Below are positions 22,062-29,018 of a DNA stretch of 64,000 bases, piece by piece. The stretch is taken from NCBI GenBank assembly GCA_947454485.1, contig CANGJJ010000002.1, positions 186,001 through 250,000 on the forward strand. Reading direction: 5' to 3'. The notes beneath the pieces are model-generated. The model was not told the DNA's origin and searched no databases. It worked only from the letters and a program-made list of their open reading frames with translations. This DNA comes from Beijerinckiaceae bacterium. Its GTDB lineage: Bacteria > Pseudomonadota > Alphaproteobacteria > Rhizobiales > Beijerinckiaceae. The translations under genes were made by a program, and so were the position numbers. Position 1 is the first letter of the stretch, and each line of letters starts with the position of its first letter.

Positions 22062-22949
22062 ATGCCCGAAGATTTAATGACCTGCGCGGCCACTGACCCA
22101 CATCGAGGCGAAGCTCTCGCAGTGCGGGCCCGGGACCACAAACTGTATAAGATGGGTGGTAGCCCTTTTTTCCTGCGTCGCCAGACGCGGGACTTGGTAG
22201 ATTTTTCTGTCGAGAAAGATGAGCTATCGCAAGAACTTCGGTTTTACAGGCGCGTTCAGCCTGGCTGCTTGCAATTCATCTTGGTGGAAGATGCCGACCC
22301 CCAAGCCATGATTTCCTGGTCGGGCAGCTGCGCTGATCATATTACGCGCAAGCCCGCCACAGTTCTCAGCCTGACCCTGAGCACGACGCGCAGCGCCGAA
22401 CTGGTTTCACCGAAAGCCGATGAGGCCTTGCGCGCGGCTATGGAGGGCAGCTTTGGTCCTTGCTCACTGCGTCTGCGCACTCCGCAAGTCGCGCAGCTCC
22501 GGGCAGCCTTGCACGAATGCCTCGAGGGCCAGGCAAACAGTGATGTGATCCTAACTTTGGCTGAGCAATGCCTCATCGCCGCCTGTGATGGCGCGGTGGA
22601 GCAATGGTCCTTGGGCGCTTTGCGTCGGCGCAATCTTGCCATCCAGACCGAAGATCTCTTGCTGGGCACAAAGGGCGATCTGGAATTGAACGAGGTCGCC
22701 AAAAAGCTCGATTGCTCACGCCGCTTGCTGCAGCTCGCACTGCAACAGACATTCGGCATCGGCTTTGTATCGCTGAAGCGCTTCATTCGCCTCCACCAAT
22801 TGCGTCACACGCTGTTGAATGGCGACGGCGGCCTGCTGGCAGACTTGGCTGTCGCGCATGGATTTTTCCATCTCGGCCGTTTTGCCAAACATTACCGCGA
22901 TGTCTTTGGCACTCTACCCTCTCGCGAGAGTGCCAGCCGCAGCTCGTGA
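22062..22949 (+). CDS. AraC-family transcriptional regulator
   Basis: A 295-residue protein with a C-terminal AraC/XylS double helix-turn-helix (about 190-290). The first helix-turn-helix contains LELNEVAKKLDCSRRLLQLALQ and the second AVAHGFFHLGRFAKHYRDVFG followed by TLPSRE, the family signature. The N-terminal part (about 1-170) resembles the AraC-binding-like domain of regulators that sense small organic acids or aromatics, with no motif that names the ligand. It lies directly upstream and on the same strand as the lyase operon, 67 bp away, and divergent to the porin. It is thus the best candidate regulator for one or both. A second ATG five codons in is possible. Confidence 0.9.
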   Translation: MPEDLMTCAATDPHRGEALAVRARDHKLYKMGGSPFFLRRQTRDLVDFSVEKDELSQELRFYRRVQPGCLQFILVEDADPQAMISWSGSCADHITRKPATVLSLTLSTTRSAELVSPKADEALRAAMEGSFGPCSLRLRTPQVAQLRAALHECLEGQANSDVILTLAEQCLIAACDGAVEQWSLGALRRRNLAIQTEDLLLGTKGDLELNEVAKKLDCSRRLLQLALQQTFGIGFVSLKRFIRLHQLRHTLLNGDGGLLADLAVAHGFFHLGRFAKHYRDVFGTLPSRESASRSS

Positions 22950-23016
22950 CCTGTTGCCTGTGCCAGTGGTCCTGCTATAGCGCTGAGGCACCGAGCAAGA
23001 GATCAGGGACGAGCAG

Positions 23017-23898
23017 ATGGCCATCGAAAAGGCGACAACCCGCTTCCGCGCGCTTCTGGCACGCGATCAGGTGACGATGCTGCCGGGCGTCGGCGATCCT
23101 TTCTCCGCGCGCCTTGTTGCCGCTGAAGGTTTCGAAGCCCTGATGAGTTCAGGCAATGCCTCTTCCGCCATGCGTCTTGGCATGCCGGATGTGGGCCTGC
23201 TCACCCTTGCTGAAAATGCTGAAAATGCCGGACGCATTGCAGCGGCCAGCGGCCTGCCTGTTTTCGCAGATGCAGACACAGGCTATGGCCCAGCGCTGAA
23301 TGTGCGCCGCACGATCATGGAATTTGAGCGCGCTGGCGTGGCCGCCATCATGATCGAAGATCAGGTGACACCCAAAAAATGCGGCATGCTCGCGGGCAAG
23401 CAAGTGGTGCGCCCCGCCGAGATGGAGATGAAAATCAAAGCCGCTTTGGATGCCCGCCGCGATGATGATCTTGTCATTGTCGCGCGCACCGATGCACGCG
23501 CGGTCGAGGGACTGGACGCTGCGATCAAACGCGCTGAATTATATCAGCGCGCGGGTGCGGATGTGATCTTTGTCGAAGGCCCGCGCAGCGCCGAGGAAGC
23601 CGCCGAGATTGCGCGCCGCATTGATGTGCCTTTGCTCTACAATATCACGCCCACCGGCAGCGTGCCGCCGCTTGATCTGCCGACGCTCAAAGCCATGGGC
23701 TACAAAATGCTGAGCTGCTCGGTCTTTGTTCTGCTCGCCGCCATTCCCGGCATGCGGCATTTCTTGCGCACCTTGCGCGAGACCGGTGAAGTCGCCAAAG
23801 CGGGCGCTGCCGTCGCATCCATGAATGACTATTACGACATCCTGAAGCTCAAGGAATGGCAGGACTATGAGGCGGCCTATACACCGCCCTCAGAGTGA
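23017..23898 (+). CDS. Isocitrate lyase/PEP mutase family C-C lyase (dimethylmalate- or methylisocitrate-lyase-like)
   Basis: A 293-residue TIM-barrel enzyme of the superfamily that includes 2-methylisocitrate lyase, 2,3-dimethylmalate lyase, oxaloacetate decarboxylase and PEP mutase. It has the Mg-binding strand FADADTGYG (Asp85, Asp87), EDQV, and the flexible active-site loop with Cys122 in PKKCGMLAGK. Most lyases read KKCGH or KRCGH here; this one has Met124 in place of the histidine. VARTDARAVEGLDAAI is closest to methylisocitrate and dimethylmalate lyases. The next genes encode a carboxylate-binding protein and an aconitase-family hydro-lyase, so the likely reaction is cleavage of a substituted malate or isocitrate to pyruvate or succinate plus a second acid. 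The exact substrate is unknown. Confidence 0.85.
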   Translation: MAIEKATTRFRALLARDQVTMLPGVGDPFSARLVAAEGFEALMSSGNASSAMRLGMPDVGLLTLAENAENAGRIAAASGLPVFADADTGYGPALNVRRTIMEFERAGVAAIMIEDQVTPKKCGMLAGKQVVRPAEMEMKIKAALDARRDDDLVIVARTDARAVEGLDAAIKRAELYQRAGADVIFVEGPRSAEEAAEIARRIDVPLLYNITPTGSVPPLDLPTLKAMGYKMLSCSVFVLLAAIPGMRHFLRTLRETGEVAKAGAAVASMNDYYDILKLKEWQDYEAAYTPPSE

Positions 23899-23941
23899 AC
23901 CAGCTGCGTATAAGTCTAGATCACCACGGAAGGACATTCCC

Positions 23942-25042
23942 ATGCAGCCACGGCTCAAATCCATCCTCACGGCAGGCGCATTGATCGCCAGCGCGCTTTT
24001 GGCCAGCATGCCGGCACGCGCGCAGCAACCCATCGAAAATTTCTCCGGCAAGACTTTGACCATTGTCGTGGGTCTGGCGGCCGGCGGTTCAGCCGATACT
24101 CTGGTGCGTCTGTTCACGCCGCATCTGAAGAAGCATATTCCGGGCGAGCCCAATATTGTCGTGCAGAATATGCCGGGCGCAGGCGGCGTCCTCTCGTTCA
24201 ATTATATGTATGAGAAAGCCAAGCCCGATGGTCAGACCGTCATCATGACCCTGTGGGATCCTCTGGCCCAAGCGCTCGGCAATCAGGGCCTGCGCGCACG
24301 TTATGATCAATATGAATTCCTTGGCGGCATCAGCGATATTCGCGTGAACTATATGCGCGTCGATGCGGTTTCGGGCGGCGCCAAAAAGCCTGCTGACATT
24401 ATGAAGGCCAAGGATATTTCCATCGGCGCTTATGCGACGACGGATATTTCGGGCATTCTCTCTCATCTCACGCTGAAAACTTTGGGCGTGCCGCATAAAG
24501 TCGTCACCGGCTATCGCGGCGGCTCGGATGTGTTTCTAGCTTTGCAGCGCGGCGAAGTGCATGTCCACAACACCAGCATCGGCACTTATCGCACACGCTC
24601 GAAATCCTTCATCACCACAGGCGAAGGCATGGGCCTGGCTTATCTCGTTCCCTCCGACGAGAAGGGCGACTATAAGCGCGATCCGCGCATCACCGACATG
24701 CCGGTCTTTCAGGATCTTTACAAAGAGATCCACGGCAAATTGCCTGAAGGCATAGAGTGGAATGCTTTCAATTGGGCCGTGCAGCAGTTTGGCGATCTGG
24801 CCTATGTCGCCATGGCTCCGCCCGGCACACCACCTGCCACTCTGGCTGTGCTGCGCAAAGCGATGAAAGATGCGATGGAAGATCCCGCTTTCATTGATGA
24901 GTCGACCAAGCGTAACGGCCTGCCATTCGATTATGTGAGCTTGGAAGAGGGCGCGAAAGTGTTCCGCGATCTCTCCAATGTTTCGCCTGCCGTGCTCAAC
25001 GCTCTTCGCGCCAGCATCGACACAATGGGCGGCGCAAAATGA
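23942..25042 (+). CDS. Tripartite tricarboxylate transporter substrate-binding protein (Bug family)
   Basis: A 366-residue periplasmic receptor. A signal peptide (RLKSILTAGALIASALLASMPARAQ) precedes the family opening KTLTIVVGLAAGGSADTLVRL and the ligand-loop region VVQNMPGAGG. It is longer than the usual 320-330 residues and diverges from the orphan Bug protein at 2.4-3.3 kb. The start at 23942 has AAGGA eight bases upstream; a longer frame to 23867 would overlap the lyase gene. The gene lies 43 bases after the lyase and its stop overlaps the next ATG, so binding and catabolism are coupled. No TctA/TctB permease gene is present, so transport must use permeases encoded elsewhere. Confidence 0.88.
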   Translation: MQPRLKSILTAGALIASALLASMPARAQQPIENFSGKTLTIVVGLAAGGSADTLVRLFTPHLKKHIPGEPNIVVQNMPGAGGVLSFNYMYEKAKPDGQTVIMTLWDPLAQALGNQGLRARYDQYEFLGGISDIRVNYMRVDAVSGGAKKPADIMKAKDISIGAYATTDISGILSHLTLKTLGVPHKVVTGYRGGSDVFLALQRGEVHVHNTSIGTYRTRSKSFITTGEGMGLAYLVPSDEKGDYKRDPRITDMPVFQDLYKEIHGKLPEGIEWNAFNWAVQQFGDLAYVAMAPPGTPPATLAVLRKAMKDAMEDPAFIDESTKRNGLPFDYVSLEEGAKVFRDLSNVSPAVLNALRASIDTMGGAK

Positions 25043-26448
25043 GCGCAGCCCGCTCCCTGTTCGACAAAATATGGGACAAGCATCTCGTCGGCCGCAGGGC
25101 CGATGGGCGTGACCTGATCTATATTGATCGGCATGTGCTGCATGATCTTCATGCGCCTCATGCCTTCGGCAAATTGAACAAAGCGGGCCGTAAAGTGAGG
25201 CGCACAGACCTCACCTTCTCCATGCAGGATCACTCGGTCTCCGTTCTTCCCGGTCGCACCGAAGAGACCTATGCCGAAGGAACAGCCTTTGTGCGCGCCA
25301 TGCGCGAAGGCAGCCGCAAAAATGGTGTGCGCGTTTTTGATTTGGGCGATCCTGATCAAGGTATCAGCCATGTGGTTGCGCCAGAGCTAGGCATGGTTCT
25401 GCCCGGCGCAACCCATGCCGTGCCCGACAGTCACGCCTGCACGGTGGGCGGTCTTGGCGCGCTCGCCTTTGGCTGCGGCACGACAGAGCTTGAACATATT
25501 CTGGCGACGCAAGTCATCACACTCAATCGCCCCAAGCGCCTGCGCGTCACGCTGGAAGGTCAGCTTCATCCCCATGTCGCAGGCAAAGATGTCGCGCTCG
25601 CCATCATCGCTCAACTGGGCGTCGCGGGCGGGCGTGGATTTGCGATCGAATTTGCTGGGCCTGTTGCACGCGCCCTCAGCGTTGAAGCGCGCCTGACCCT
25701 GTGCAATCTCACGATTGAAATGGGCTCACGCTCCGGCTTTATCGCGCCTGATGACACGGTCTTCAACTGGATTGCAGGTCGCCCCTTTGCGCCCATCGGT
25801 GCACAATGGGATCTGGCACTTGCGCAATGGCGTCACCTTTTCAGTGATGAAGGCGCGCAGTTTGATCATGAGATGAGCCTTGATTGTTCTGCGCTTGGCC
25901 CGCAGATCACTTGGGGGACTGAGCCTTCGCAAGTCATCAATATCAATGATCGCGCACCTGATCCCTCGCAAGTCGATCCTTCTCGACGCGAGGCGGTGCA
26001 GCGCGCGCTGACCTATATGGGATTGGAACCCGGCGCGAAACTCGAAGGCCTGCCTGTAGGCCGCGTCTTCATCGGGTCTTGTACCAATTCACGCCTGCCA
26101 GATTTGGAAGTCGCCGCTCATATCGTCAAAGGCCGCAAAGTCGCGCAAGGCGTGACGGCCTGGGTCGTGCCTGGCTCCTCGCAAGTCAAGCGTGATGCCG
26201 AGGCCAAGGGTCTTGATCGCATCTTCACAGAGGCGGGCTTCATGTGGGGTGAAGCTGGTTGCTCCATGTGCGCGGGCACCAATGGCGATACAGCCAAACC
26301 GGGCGAGCGCATTCTCTCCACCACCAATCGCAATTTTGAGAATCGTCAGGGCCGCGCGGTGCGCACACATCTCGTCGGGCCAGCGCTGGCAGCAGCTGCC
26401 GCCATCACCGGTGTCATCACCGATGTGCGCAAGCTGGAGGGACTGTGA
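25039..26448 (+). CDS. LeuC-like aconitase-family hydro-lyase, large subunit (non-biosynthetic paralogue)
   Basis: A 469-residue protein with the LeuC fold and all three [4Fe-4S] ligands: Cys348 (IGSCTNS), Cys408 and Cys411 (GCSMC). It matches LeuC along its length (LYIDRH-like LIYIDRH, ALAFGCGTTELEH, TLCNLTIEMGSRSGFIAPD), but key positions differ: PDSHACT where LeuC has GDSHTAT, and CAGTNGD where LeuC has CLAMNND. The gene is fused by ATGA overlaps into an operon with a C-C lyase and a carboxylate-binding protein and has no leucine genes nearby. It is better read as dimethylmaleate, citraconate or related hydratase/isomerase than as isopropylmalate isomerase. Substrate assignment is inference. 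Confidence 0.85.
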   Translation: MSAARSLFDKIWDKHLVGRRADGRDLIYIDRHVLHDLHAPHAFGKLNKAGRKVRRTDLTFSMQDHSVSVLPGRTEETYAEGTAFVRAMREGSRKNGVRVFDLGDPDQGISHVVAPELGMVLPGATHAVPDSHACTVGGLGALAFGCGTTELEHILATQVITLNRPKRLRVTLEGQLHPHVAGKDVALAIIAQLGVAGGRGFAIEFAGPVARALSVEARLTLCNLTIEMGSRSGFIAPDDTVFNWIAGRPFAPIGAQWDLALAQWRHLFSDEGAQFDHEMSLDCSALGPQITWGTEPSQVININDRAPDPSQVDPSRREAVQRALTYMGLEPGAKLEGLPVGRVFIGSCTNSRLPDLEVAAHIVKGRKVAQGVTAWVVPGSSQVKRDAEAKGLDRIFTEAGFMWGEAGCSMCAGTNGDTAKPGERILSTTNRNFENRQGRAVRTHLVGPALAAAAAITGVITDVRKLEGL

Positions 26449-27068
26449 TGCAAGCCTTCACCACAGTGACCGGCATTGCTGTGCCGATGATCGAAGATGA
26501 TATCAACACCGATCAGATCGCACCGCTGCAACTGGCCAAGGGGCTTGAGCCTGACTGGGGCGAGTTGCTCTTCAAGCGCCAGCGCCTGTTGCCCGATGGG
26601 TCGCCCAGCGATCACATCCTCAACCGCCCACAATATCGCACGCCCTCTATTTTGGTCGCTGCCCATAATTTTGGCTGCGGCTCATCGCGTGAATCAGCCG
26701 TCTGGTGTCTGGCTGGCATTGGGATTCGCTGTGTGATCGCGCGCAGCATCGCAGACATCTTTCGCGAGAACTGCCTCCAGAATGGGTTGCTGCCGATTGA
26801 GCTCCCACAGATGGATGAGCTGGAAGCAGCTGTTCTGGCGAGCGATGGGGGGAGCCCTTTCACCGTCGATCTTCCCAGCCAGACGATCAGCCATGGTGCG
26901 CAGAGCTGGTCCTTCGAGATCGGTGCTTCGGATAAATTGCGCCTGATCGAGGGCCTCGATGAGATCGGCCTCACCATGAAACATGAGGCCGAGATCCGCG
27001 CTTGGGAGGCCAAGACGGCTCAGGACAGCCCCTGGCTGCAGGAGGCGCGCGACCGCAGGCTGAGCTGA
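26448..27068 (+). CDS. LeuD-like aconitase-family hydro-lyase, small subunit
   Basis: The 206-residue swivel-domain partner of the preceding subunit. It has the family opening IEDDINTDQIAP and the substrate-loop motif NFGCGSSRESAVW near residues 74-86. LeuD and most aconitase small subunits read SSREHAPW, so the histidine is replaced by serine here and Pro by Val, which may change substrate shape preference. IRCVIARSIADIFRENCLQNGLLPI is typical. The ATG overlaps the large-subunit stop by one base; a GTG one codon earlier is also possible. This ends the operon. Confidence 0.84.
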   Translation: MQAFTTVTGIAVPMIEDDINTDQIAPLQLAKGLEPDWGELLFKRQRLLPDGSPSDHILNRPQYRTPSILVAAHNFGCGSSRESAVWCLAGIGIRCVIARSIADIFRENCLQNGLLPIELPQMDELEAAVLASDGGSPFTVDLPSQTISHGAQSWSFEIGASDKLRLIEGLDEIGLTMKHEAEIRAWEAKTAQDSPWLQEARDRRLS

Positions 27069-27302: not shown

Positions 27303-27329
27303 AACCGGCGCCACAAGCGCCGGTTTTTT
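27303..27329 (+). terminator. Rho-independent terminator after the 46 aa membrane protein gene
   Basis: AACCGGCG at 27303-27310 pairs with CGCCGGTT at 27318-27325 around a seven-base loop. A run of six T residues follows. It also insulates the next unit from the LeuCD-like operon. Confidence 0.88.
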
Positions 27330-27502: not shown

Positions 27503-28120
27503 ATGTCCGGATTCATCTGTCGCAAAGACATATTCAAGAGCGCCCGCACGAAGCGGCGCCTTCAAGCTGTGTCTCTCTTGCTGATGGCTTGGATCATGCC
27601 CGCGCATGGCTACGACTTCGATCTTTTGTCCAACACAGCGCTGATTAGCGTGAAGGAGCGTCAGACCCTATCGACCTATGCGCAGCAACTGGGCGCGGGT
27701 GGATATGAACTCTCCGGCGGCAGCCCCGTCACTTTGACAAAATGGTATCAACGCCGAAATCCAGATGTCCATTTTGACTTTATGACGCAAGTTCTCCCGG
27801 GCGTCGGAATTCTGTGGGGCGTGTCGACTGGCGAATATGCTGCGAAATATATGATCGAGCCTGCGCTGAAGGCCGGCGTCATTCTGCAACACGCCTTCAG
27901 TCCAACAGCCGATATTTCATTTTCTTTCACCCAGCTCTTTCGAGGCCGTTTGAAAGAAAAACCCTGTGTCGCCGACTATGGCGACATCGGCGGTGTTCAG
28001 TCCGTCAACTGCCGCCTGGCCGCTTCCACGCTCGAACCGTCCGCAACTCTACAATATCTCGCCAATGTCCGCCCCCCAGACCACAGCTGGGTCGGGGTCC
28101 GGTTTAACCTACGTTATTGA
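27503..28120 (+). CDS. Exported protein of unknown function, possible outer-membrane barrel
   Basis: A 205-residue product. A basic start (CRKDIFKSARTKRRLQ) precedes a hydrophobic segment and a cleavage-like site at MPAHG, giving a mature protein starting YDFDLL. The rest has alternating polar and hydrophobic residues, with aromatic-ended stretches (HFDFMTQVLPG, ISFSFTQLFRGRL, SWVGVRFNLRY) and a terminal tyrosine, as expected for outer-membrane strands. Two cysteines (KPCVADYG and VNCRLA) could pair. I do not recognise the family. A GTG eight codons upstream is an alternative start, but AGGAGG sits well for this ATG. The protease gene begins ten bases after the stop, so the two form a unit. 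Confidence 0.7.
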   Translation: MSGFICRKDIFKSARTKRRLQAVSLLLMAWIMPAHGYDFDLLSNTALISVKERQTLSTYAQQLGAGGYELSGGSPVTLTKWYQRRNPDVHFDFMTQVLPGVGILWGVSTGEYAAKYMIEPALKAGVILQHAFSPTADISFSFTQLFRGRLKEKPCVADYGDIGGVQSVNCRLAASTLEPSATLQYLANVRPPDHSWVGVRFNLRY

Positions 28121-28130
28121 GGATGATGCC

Positions 28131-29018
28131 ATGAATTACGTTGCACGATTGGCCTGCGGATTCGGCTTGGTTTTGGCATCATCCGTGAGCGCGTCTGCGC
28201 AAACCTATTTCAACTGGATGAGCCCGGAGATCACGGGCGCATGGTCGCAAGGCTACAAAGGTCAAGGCGTCAACATCACAGTTGTCGATGACTTCAGCAG
28301 CAGGTCGCGATTTTACGGTAATTTCGGTGATGGCACACGATATATGCGCCATGGCGAATGGACCTATAAAGAAATTGGAATGCTCGCCCCCAGCGCCACA
28401 CTTCGTCAGGATGACTTCTCCACCAATGCGCAAGTCAAGCTCTATAGCGGCCTCAATGTTTTGAATATGAGCTATGGAATGTATGCGGCGGCCAATGTTT
28501 CGCTCACTCAATTGCGGTGGAGCGCACAGGAGTCCTCGATTATCAGCTATGCGAAAAATGGTACTGCCATCGCGGTCAAAGCTGCGGGCAATGATTCCGT
28601 TGCTGTGACCGGCGTCAATGCAGACGGAAAGAAAGACGTCTTGAATCTGGCATTGGTCGGCACAGCCTCGGCCATCTTCGTGGGCGCGCTTGATCGCAAC
28701 GGCACCACGACGAACAAGGCGCTGATTGCCTCTTATTCGAACTTTGCAGGAACTGACGCAGCTGTTCAAAACAAATTTCTGATGGTGGGTGTGCGCGGCG
28801 ACCTCACCAGTCTTTATGGGACATCTTTTGCTGCGCCCGTCGTCTCCGCATATGCGGCGGTGCTGGGCAGCAAATTCACCTCTGCCACCGCAACGCAAAT
28901 TACCAATCAGCTGCTGAACACCGCCCGACAAGATACGGTTGCCAATTACAACATAGCCATTCACGGCCGTGGTGAAGCCAGTATCGCGCGCGCGCTTGCG
29001 CCGACATCGATCAGATAG
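28131..29018 (+). CDS. Small exported subtilisin-like serine protease (S8 family)
   Basis: A 295-residue protein with a signal peptide (ARLACGFGLVLASSVSASAQ) and a compact subtilisin fold. The likely catalytic triad is Asp53 (NITVVDDF), His74 (RHGEWTYKEIGMLAPSA) and Ser232 (LYGTSFAAP), with the oxyanion Asn154 in AAGND. The Asp motif lacks the usual DTG or DSG, and the His motif is HGEW where most have HGTH. There is no propeptide-like domain of normal size between the signal and the catalytic core. It is co-transcribed with the barrel-like protein. Periplasmic or surface action is inferred from the signal. Its 3' end is 22 bases from the 3' end of tRNA-Ala. Confidence 0.85.
   Translation: MNYVARLACGFGLVLASSVSASAQTYFNWMSPEITGAWSQGYKGQGVNITVVDDFSSRSRFYGNFGDGTRYMRHGEWTYKEIGMLAPSATLRQDDFSTNAQVKLYSGLNVLNMSYGMYAAANVSLTQLRWSAQESSIISYAKNGTAIAVKAAGNDSVAVTGVNADGKKDVLNLALVGTASAIFVGALDRNGTTTNKALIASYSNFAGTDAAVQNKFLMVGVRGDLTSLYGTSFAAPVVSAYAAVLGSKFTSATATQITNQLLNTARQDTVANYNIAIHGRGEASIARALAPTSIR

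Follow-up and report, generated by a model that had tools for sequence, protein, structure and literature searches.

Here, we describe a five-gene cluster on contig CANGJJ010000002.1 of a Beijerinckiaceae bacterium (assembly GCA_947454485.1), located in a stretch of 64,000 nucleotides (positions 186,001 to 250,000 of the forward strand, hereafter the window). The cluster encodes an AraC-family regulator, a C-C lyase of the phosphoenolpyruvate (PEP) mutase/isocitrate lyase (PEPM/ICL) superfamily, a Bug/TctC-type periplasmic solute receptor, and the two subunits of a LeuCD-like hydro-lyase (Table 1). The regulator and lyase genes are 67 bp apart, the stop codon of the lyase and the ATG of the Bug gene are separated by 43 bp, and the Bug and LeuC-like frames overlap in an ATGA; the order, coordinates and junctions reported for all five genes in a preliminary description of this DNA hold on reading the sequence. 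The signal peptide of the receptor ends in ...SMPARAQQ. From sequence comparison we consider it likely that the cluster is a catabolic module, i.e., one that would import a substituted C4-dicarboxylate, hydrate it with the LeuCD-like enzyme and cleave the product with the lyase in a coenzyme A (CoA)-free manner, and that it does not serve leucine biosynthesis.

Table 1. Genes of the cluster, with positions in the 64-kb window and Pfam domain evidence
Feature	Position	Strand	Domain evidence
AraC-family regulator, HTH_18 at the C terminus	22062..22949	+	PF12833 (AraC-type HTH), 48.5 bits, cut-off 33.6
PEP mutase/isocitrate lyase superfamily C-C lyase, 293 amino acids	23017..23898	+	PF13714 (PEP_mutase/ICL), 164.3 bits, above cut-off
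Bug/TctC periplasmic solute receptor with signal peptide	23942..25042	+	PF03401 (TctC), 43.3 bits, cut-off 27
LeuC-like [4Fe-4S] hydro-lyase, large subunit	25039..26448	+	PF00330 (Aconitase), 496.2 bits, above cut-off
LeuD-like hydro-lyase, small subunit; start GTG 26445 or ATG 26448	26445..27068	+	PF00694 (Aconitase_C), 83.1 bits, above cut-off

The genome (3.29 Mb, 20 contigs, 98.57% complete) encodes four aconitase-family proteins: a 932-amino acid frame, whose length we take to be that of AcnA, a canonical LeuC, the window copy and a LeuC on contig 6. As to the earlier remark that there are no leucine genes nearby, the canonical leuC-leuD pair lies outside the window on the same contig, about 65 kb from the cluster. 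Since this separate pair exists, the refutation foreseen in the preliminary description, namely that the genome would hold no other leuCD, fails. The window LeuC is 50% identical to the canonical copy and 49% to the contig-6 copy (42% and 39%, respectively, for LeuD). Of 121 LeuC rows extracted from the genus, 118 entered a FastTree tree (L233, L236 and L283 were omitted as too gappy and counted as "other"). There, the window copy belongs to clade A, with 12 rows and support 99, which is well separated from the 43 rows of the canonical clade (support 100). The LeuD loop, identified as setting specificity in studies of isopropylmalate isomerases, is NTDQIAPLQLAKGL in the window copy and DTDMIIPKQYLKTI in the canonical consensus; the canonical LeuC motif GDSHTxTHGAFG is replaced by PDSHACTVGGLG in clades A, B1 and B2, with a clade-A consensus of PDSHACTVG where the canonical one has GDSHTxTHG. 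The three cysteines that mark a [4Fe-4S] hydro-lyase of the aconitase superfamily are present in the window LeuC (C348, C408 and C411), and in clades A, B1, B2, C6, D and canonical alike at least 90% of rows keep them. The window pair is neither the sole leuCD of its genome nor canonical in clade and loop, as would be expected of the isopropylmalate isomerase.

Linkage was counted in 120 stretches from 51 genomes of the genus, taken mostly around LeuC matches and in a few cases around type A lyases; the 121 LeuC rows come from these stretches plus the three LeuC loci of the window genome itself, and some short partial LeuC matches lie outside the set. A PEPM-superfamily lyase within 6 kb was found in 50 of the 62 rows of the five non-canonical clades and in 0/43 canonical rows (0/32 of those with at least 3 kb on both sides). 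By clade, and with the same flank requirement in brackets, the counts are 11/12 for A (9/9), 13/18 for B1 (12/13), 11/12 for B2 (6/6), 10/14 for C6 (6/8) and 5/6 for D (4/5); the other rows gave 2/16 (2/13), both C6-like and omitted from the tree. Because the window genome encodes four PEPM-type lyases in 3.29 Mb, about 1-2% of rows would be expected to have one within 6 kb by chance. A Bug match within 6 kb was seen in 11/12 rows of clade A, 14/18 of B1, 10/12 of B2, none of the 14 C6 and six D rows, and 5/43 canonical rows. The pairing of a hydratase with a C-C lyase, on which the preliminary description was built, recurs in several LeuC clades. Of the neighbourhood it proposed to search for, the whole series lyase-Bug-LeuC-LeuD was found in nine further genus genomes (L180-L188), and contig ends interrupt it in L189 and L296-L298. 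By tblastn in a set of 80 loci, the four genes without AraC recur in this order with proteins 69-83% identical; the nine same-order loci of that set (L054-L061 and L084) are partly the same records as the genus loci and are not independent of them. An ortholog of the lyase (72-78% identity) is present in 23 of the 51 genus genomes, the window's own included. Relatives from a pond and from ErkenSummer suggest that the genus is a freshwater one. With a canonical leuCD elsewhere, a clade of its own, a changed LeuD loop and linkage to a lyase, the window pair is unlikely to be the leucine enzyme, in agreement with the preliminary description.

The lyase carries D58, D85, D87, E114, K120-K121-C122-G123-M124, R157 and E187. 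The motif K(K/R)CGH, the signature of PrpB, is visible in the structure 3eoo, whereas the window lyase reads KKCGM with Met124 in the position of the His, and K(K/R)C(G/A)M is found in 19/19 rows of type A lyases. This substitution suggests a pocket shaped for something other than an isocitrate-type tricarboxylate. One report on PrpB names Asp58, Glu115 and Cys123 as catalytic (PMC7609661); the catalytic Asp, Glu, Cys and Arg are retained in the window lyase as D58, E114, C122 and R157, and together with the PF13714 match and the fold they place it in the superfamily. An AlphaFold2 model (pLDDT 93.0) has as its best PDB matches oxaloacetate acetylhydrolase (OAH), PrpB and petal death protein, tied within 1 Z, with dimethylmalate lyase (structure 3fa3) close behind, so the fold comparison makes no choice between these lyase functions.

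None of the five genes matches TctA or TctB in Pfam, i.e., the cluster does not contain a complete tripartite tricarboxylate transporter. The receptor is an orphan, and for a role in uptake it would have to share a membrane carrier from another locus. The genome gives 118 TctC matches (E ≤ 0.001; some proteins give two) and six TctA matches, all six elsewhere, a very high receptor-to-carrier ratio for 3.29 Mb. Orthologs of the window Bug at E ≤ 1e-60 were found in 6/199 genomes of the family, own included, all in the genus and one only 49% identical, and in 2/397 genomes of the order, own included, the other one being 41% identical; at E ≤ 1e-20, 17/289 genomes of a class sample gave matches, none above 34% identity outside the own genome. 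The ortholog is nearly genus-bound. The AraC protein found no match in the set of 80 loci (tblastn, 1e-8) or in 122 genus loci other than the window (1e-10), and we rejected it as a conserved regulator; of all loci examined, the window alone has it beside this cluster. A promoter and terminator scan gave no more signals than its shuffles. A 9-bp perfect hairpin followed by four T (27303-27329), unlisted by that scan and located 3' of LeuD and a short open reading frame (ORF), is a possible terminator, and a protein with a subtilase domain (PF00082, 47.5 bits) is encoded downstream of the operon (27966-29018).

Other versions of the cluster exist in the genus. Four composite loci (L204, L205, L206 and L208) read lyase A-Bug A-thioesterase-LeuC-LeuD-lyase B-Bug B-IorA-IorB, the last two being an indolepyruvate-oxidoreductase-like pair. 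They have a B1-type LeuC, and no type A LeuC was found in these four genomes, two of which are less than 90% complete. Plasmid p4 of Azospirillum argentinense has two lyases around one LeuCD plus an ABC system, the second lyase grouping with type D, so that one hydratase with two lyases is a recurring arrangement. A speculative reading is that the two lyases would cleave two regio- or stereoisomers delivered by one hydratase. The type B lyases (L191-L220) have lost the equivalents of E114 and E187 and the first Lys of KKCGH and carry Tyr for His, and their chemistry may therefore differ. Indolepyruvate oxidoreductase lies beside type B clusters and was considered as a downstream step; the candidate was dropped, as PF20169 is absent from the window genome. 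Contig 6 of the window genome holds yet another cluster (L035, 9363-13128), which, beside LeuC-LeuD, encodes a divergent PEPM lyase whose KRCGH is intact, together with a protein resembling arylmalonate decarboxylase (PF17645); clusters of this kind in other genomes of the genus form clade C6 (14 rows).

In G+C-rich loci, ORF calls were unreliable, and gene orders there were therefore taken from tblastn, single-strand frames and Pfam; a clustering of ORFs favoured antisense ones for many genes, and tblastn took its place. Beyond the genus, in 16 plasmid regions picked by lyase or LeuC score, i.e., a non-random sample, the lyase lies directly beside LeuCD in seven (Azospirillum argentinense, Roseomonas, Cupriavidus, Terrarubrum, Caballeronia SBC2, Mesorhizobium and Methylobacterium currus) and about 5-6 kb away in three (Rhizobium rhizoryzae, Neorhizobium and Azospirillum ramasamyi); in the remaining six it is unlisted in the incomplete gene table of PLSDB, and these six were not searched by sequence. 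Four of the six hold leuB (Variovorax, Paraburkholderia and Caballeronia NK8) or a CoA transferase with an HMG-CoA lyase (Novosphingobium). LeuCD with leuB and Bug or ABC genes (L311-L313) and LeuCD with the CoA transferase and HMG-CoA lyase (L318) are apparently other catabolic uses of the pair. Two Rhizobium/Neorhizobium loci (L305 and L308) combine LeuCD with a KRCGH lyase; L305 also holds a Peripla_BP_6 substrate-binding protein, an FAD_binding_2 flavoprotein, an Asp/Glu racemase-family gene and MmgE/PrpD, and L308 resembles it by frame starts only. In Azospirillum, Methylobacterium, Mesorhizobium and Roseomonas, lyase and LeuCD come with an ABC or Bug transporter and a regulator, which in these other lineages is of the GntR or LysR type. 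Lyase relatives (E ≤ 1e-40) occur in 104/289 genomes of the class sample, own included. Two class-sample loci (L348 and L349) read lyase-TctC-TctB-TctA-LeuC-LeuD on one strand (by Pfam; TctB of L349 exactly at the cut-off), which is the window order with a complete transporter inside. A lyase tree was built by a quick method from 62 hand-thinned rows. It places the window type in a group of 17 (support 84), 15 of them LeuCD-linked, many rows having been chosen for linkage; the fairer count, on class-sample rows, is 5/7 LeuCD-linked inside the group versus 1/22 outside.

We infer the direction of the pathway, the action of the lyase on the product of the hydratase, and transport. In the periplasm, Bug would bind a C4-dicarboxylate anion, probably a substituted one, and pass it to a TctAB-type membrane carrier encoded elsewhere. 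The LeuCD-like Fe-S enzyme would then hydrate the cis C=C bond of a substituted maleate, or shift the hydroxyl (2-R-malate to 3-R-malate), and the lyase would cut the substituted malate between C2 and C3, needing no CoA and yielding a 2-oxoacid plus a carboxylate, presumably through the retro-aldol/Claisen chemistry that marks the isocitrate-lyase superfamily. As for the substrate, dimethylmaleate or citraconate is a choice drawn from the chemistry, and a rather improbable one.

Several points weigh against this proposal or against parts of the preliminary description. NCBIfam names both subunits LeuC and LeuD, with scores over the cut-offs. The receptor was described earlier as the cluster's own, which stands as far as linkage goes, but with 118 TctC matches and six TctA in the genome a nearby Bug is weak evidence, and this one is an orphan. 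The AraC protein, thought to be probably the cluster's own regulator, accompanies no other cluster examined, and the GntR or LysR-type regulators of other lineages speak against that idea. Lyase relatives often occur without LeuCD: among the 20 best class-sample lyase places, the own genome set aside and flanks of about 8 kb taken (shorter where a contig ends), LeuCD is on the stretch in only six, one of which has it on the other strand (L352) and another a weak LeuC of 34% identity (L367), and it is on none of nine further class loci with 1.5 kb flanks. The window Bug and the L348 TctC share 26.5% identity over 215 residues, i.e., transporters are non-orthologous across lineages, and the LeuC of L348 and L349 is nearer to canonical and C6 queries than to the window type; we therefore read the pairings as reshuffled, the same functions having been put together repeatedly, and not as one operon passed on by inheritance. 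The expectation that such a system would be new is also weakened, as database records of cultured Azospirillum, Methylobacterium, Mesorhizobium and Roseomonas already contain related sets of hydratase, lyase and transporter under the names leuC/leuD; no functional description of these sets was found in the literature searched, most subscription papers being outside its reach.

Four other explanations were weighed. That the pair is a second, redundant isopropylmalate isomerase, by chance beside a lyase and a Bug gene, agrees with the retained Fe-S cysteines and with the curated models: on TIGR00170 the window LeuC scores 571.0 against a cut-off of 560.25 (contig 6, 621.5; canonical, 797.9), on TIGR00171 the window LeuD scores 147.9 against 116.25, and both subunits also pass the PRK12466/PRK01641 cut-offs. 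However, the copy stands at 50% identity in a clade far from the canonical one, the LeuD loop and the LeuC DSH motif are altered in the clade consensus, and a neighbouring lyase is the rule in clade A and absent from canonical rows, which makes such redundancy very unlikely. More probable than that by a little, and still unlikely, is breakdown of plain maleate or hydroxymaleate, with a lyase of the oxaloacetate decarboxylase/acetylhydrolase type and the LeuCD-like pair as maleate hydratase: the D-malate formed from maleate would need a dehydrogenase before decarboxylation, and leuB-like genes adjoin LeuCD in other clusters but are not among the five genes here.

A methylcitrate-type propionate pathway, in which the lyase would be methylisocitrate lyase and the LeuCD-like pair 2-methylaconitate hydratase, is just as improbable as a redundant isomerase. 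The lyase fails both curated prpB cut-offs (TIGR02317, 262.5 against 354.4; NF008455, 218.2 against 353) and has Met for the KRCGH His throughout type A. A paralog on contig 1 does pass TIGR02317 but falls short of NF008455 (322.0 against 353); the cut-offs and this paralog make the methylcitrate cycle unlikely. Moreover, the genome encodes three MmgE/PrpD proteins, none of which matches an NCBIfam model at 1e-20, and there is no synthase among the five genes, citrate/methylcitrate synthase genes not having been searched genome-wide. Phosphonate biosynthesis of the pantaphos kind, which would lead from PEP mutase and LeuCD homologues to a phosphonomethylmaleate, has a precedent in the Pantoea hvr operon, which, according to PMC7858074, couples PEP mutase with isopropylmalate dehydratase homologues. 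The window lyase, however, reads EDQVTPKKCGM where the PepM motif is EDKX5NS (PMC12723261) and scores 121.9 on TIGR02320 against a cut-off of 319.55, and on motif and score this candidate was rejected; no phosphonomethylmalate synthase is among the five genes, the Bug receptor points to uptake, and we regard the phosphonate route as extremely unlikely.

Since the window LeuC scores above the TIGR00170 cut-off, automatic annotation would still label it LeuC, and because genome records label such genes leucine biosynthesis, a likely catabolic pathway for substituted dicarboxylates escapes notice in bacteria of soil, of plants and probably of fresh water. The identity of the substrate, if found, would name a ligand for a Bug receptor subfamily and would give a CoA-free aerobic route for substituted maleates, with sequence markers to trace it. 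A broader idea, which we put forward tentatively and hold to be rather doubtful, is that aerobic proteobacteria share a modular catabolic toolkit, misannotated and widely shuffled, whose LeuCD-type hydratases and PEPM-type lyases would serve the CoA-independent import, hydration and cleavage of a family of alkyl-substituted maleates or malates, with transporters swapped (Bug, complete TctABC or ABC) and some versions using one hydratase and two lyases for two hydroxy regioisomers. In lakes, photo-oxidised humic matter or tetrapyrroles might supply the substrates in the form of substituted maleates, which is a guess.

Among known systems, the nicotinate fermentation of Eubacterium barkeri uses a dimethylmaleate hydratase (DmdAB) and a 2,3-dimethylmalate lyase. 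The window cluster is like it in its proposed logic, a two-subunit aconitase-superfamily hydratase followed by a PEPM/ICL-superfamily lyase without CoA, and is unlike it in its receptor and in its small subunit, which is of the bacterial LeuD type and scores 65.8 on TIGR02087 (LeuD/DmdB), below the cut-off of 108.95; the dimethylmaleate-breakdown logic suggested earlier is thus kept for how hydratase and lyase would work, and not for a DmdB lineage. The pair shares with the leucine LeuCD the protein families, the Fe-S cysteines and the NCBIfam name, and differs in its separate clade, its changed specificity positions and its link to a lyase and a receptor. The lyase has the fold and the residues D58, D85, D87, E114, C122 and R157 in common with PrpB, petal death protein and oxaloacetate acetylhydrolase, and departs from PrpB in Met124 and in its scores below the prpB cut-offs. 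The itaconate/citramalyl-CoA route of Pseudomonas breaks down branched C5 dicarboxylates, and none of the components given in the abstract of its description (PMC12290011) is among the five genes of the window. The clusters of Azospirillum argentinense p4, Methylobacterium currus and Mesorhizobium sp. B2-1-1 are alike in joining hydratase and lyase to an adjacent transporter and a regulator; they differ in using ABC transporters instead of Bug and GntR or GcvA regulators, and the lyase has the His in Azospirillum, a divergent motif in Mesorhizobium and Met in place of the His in the window.

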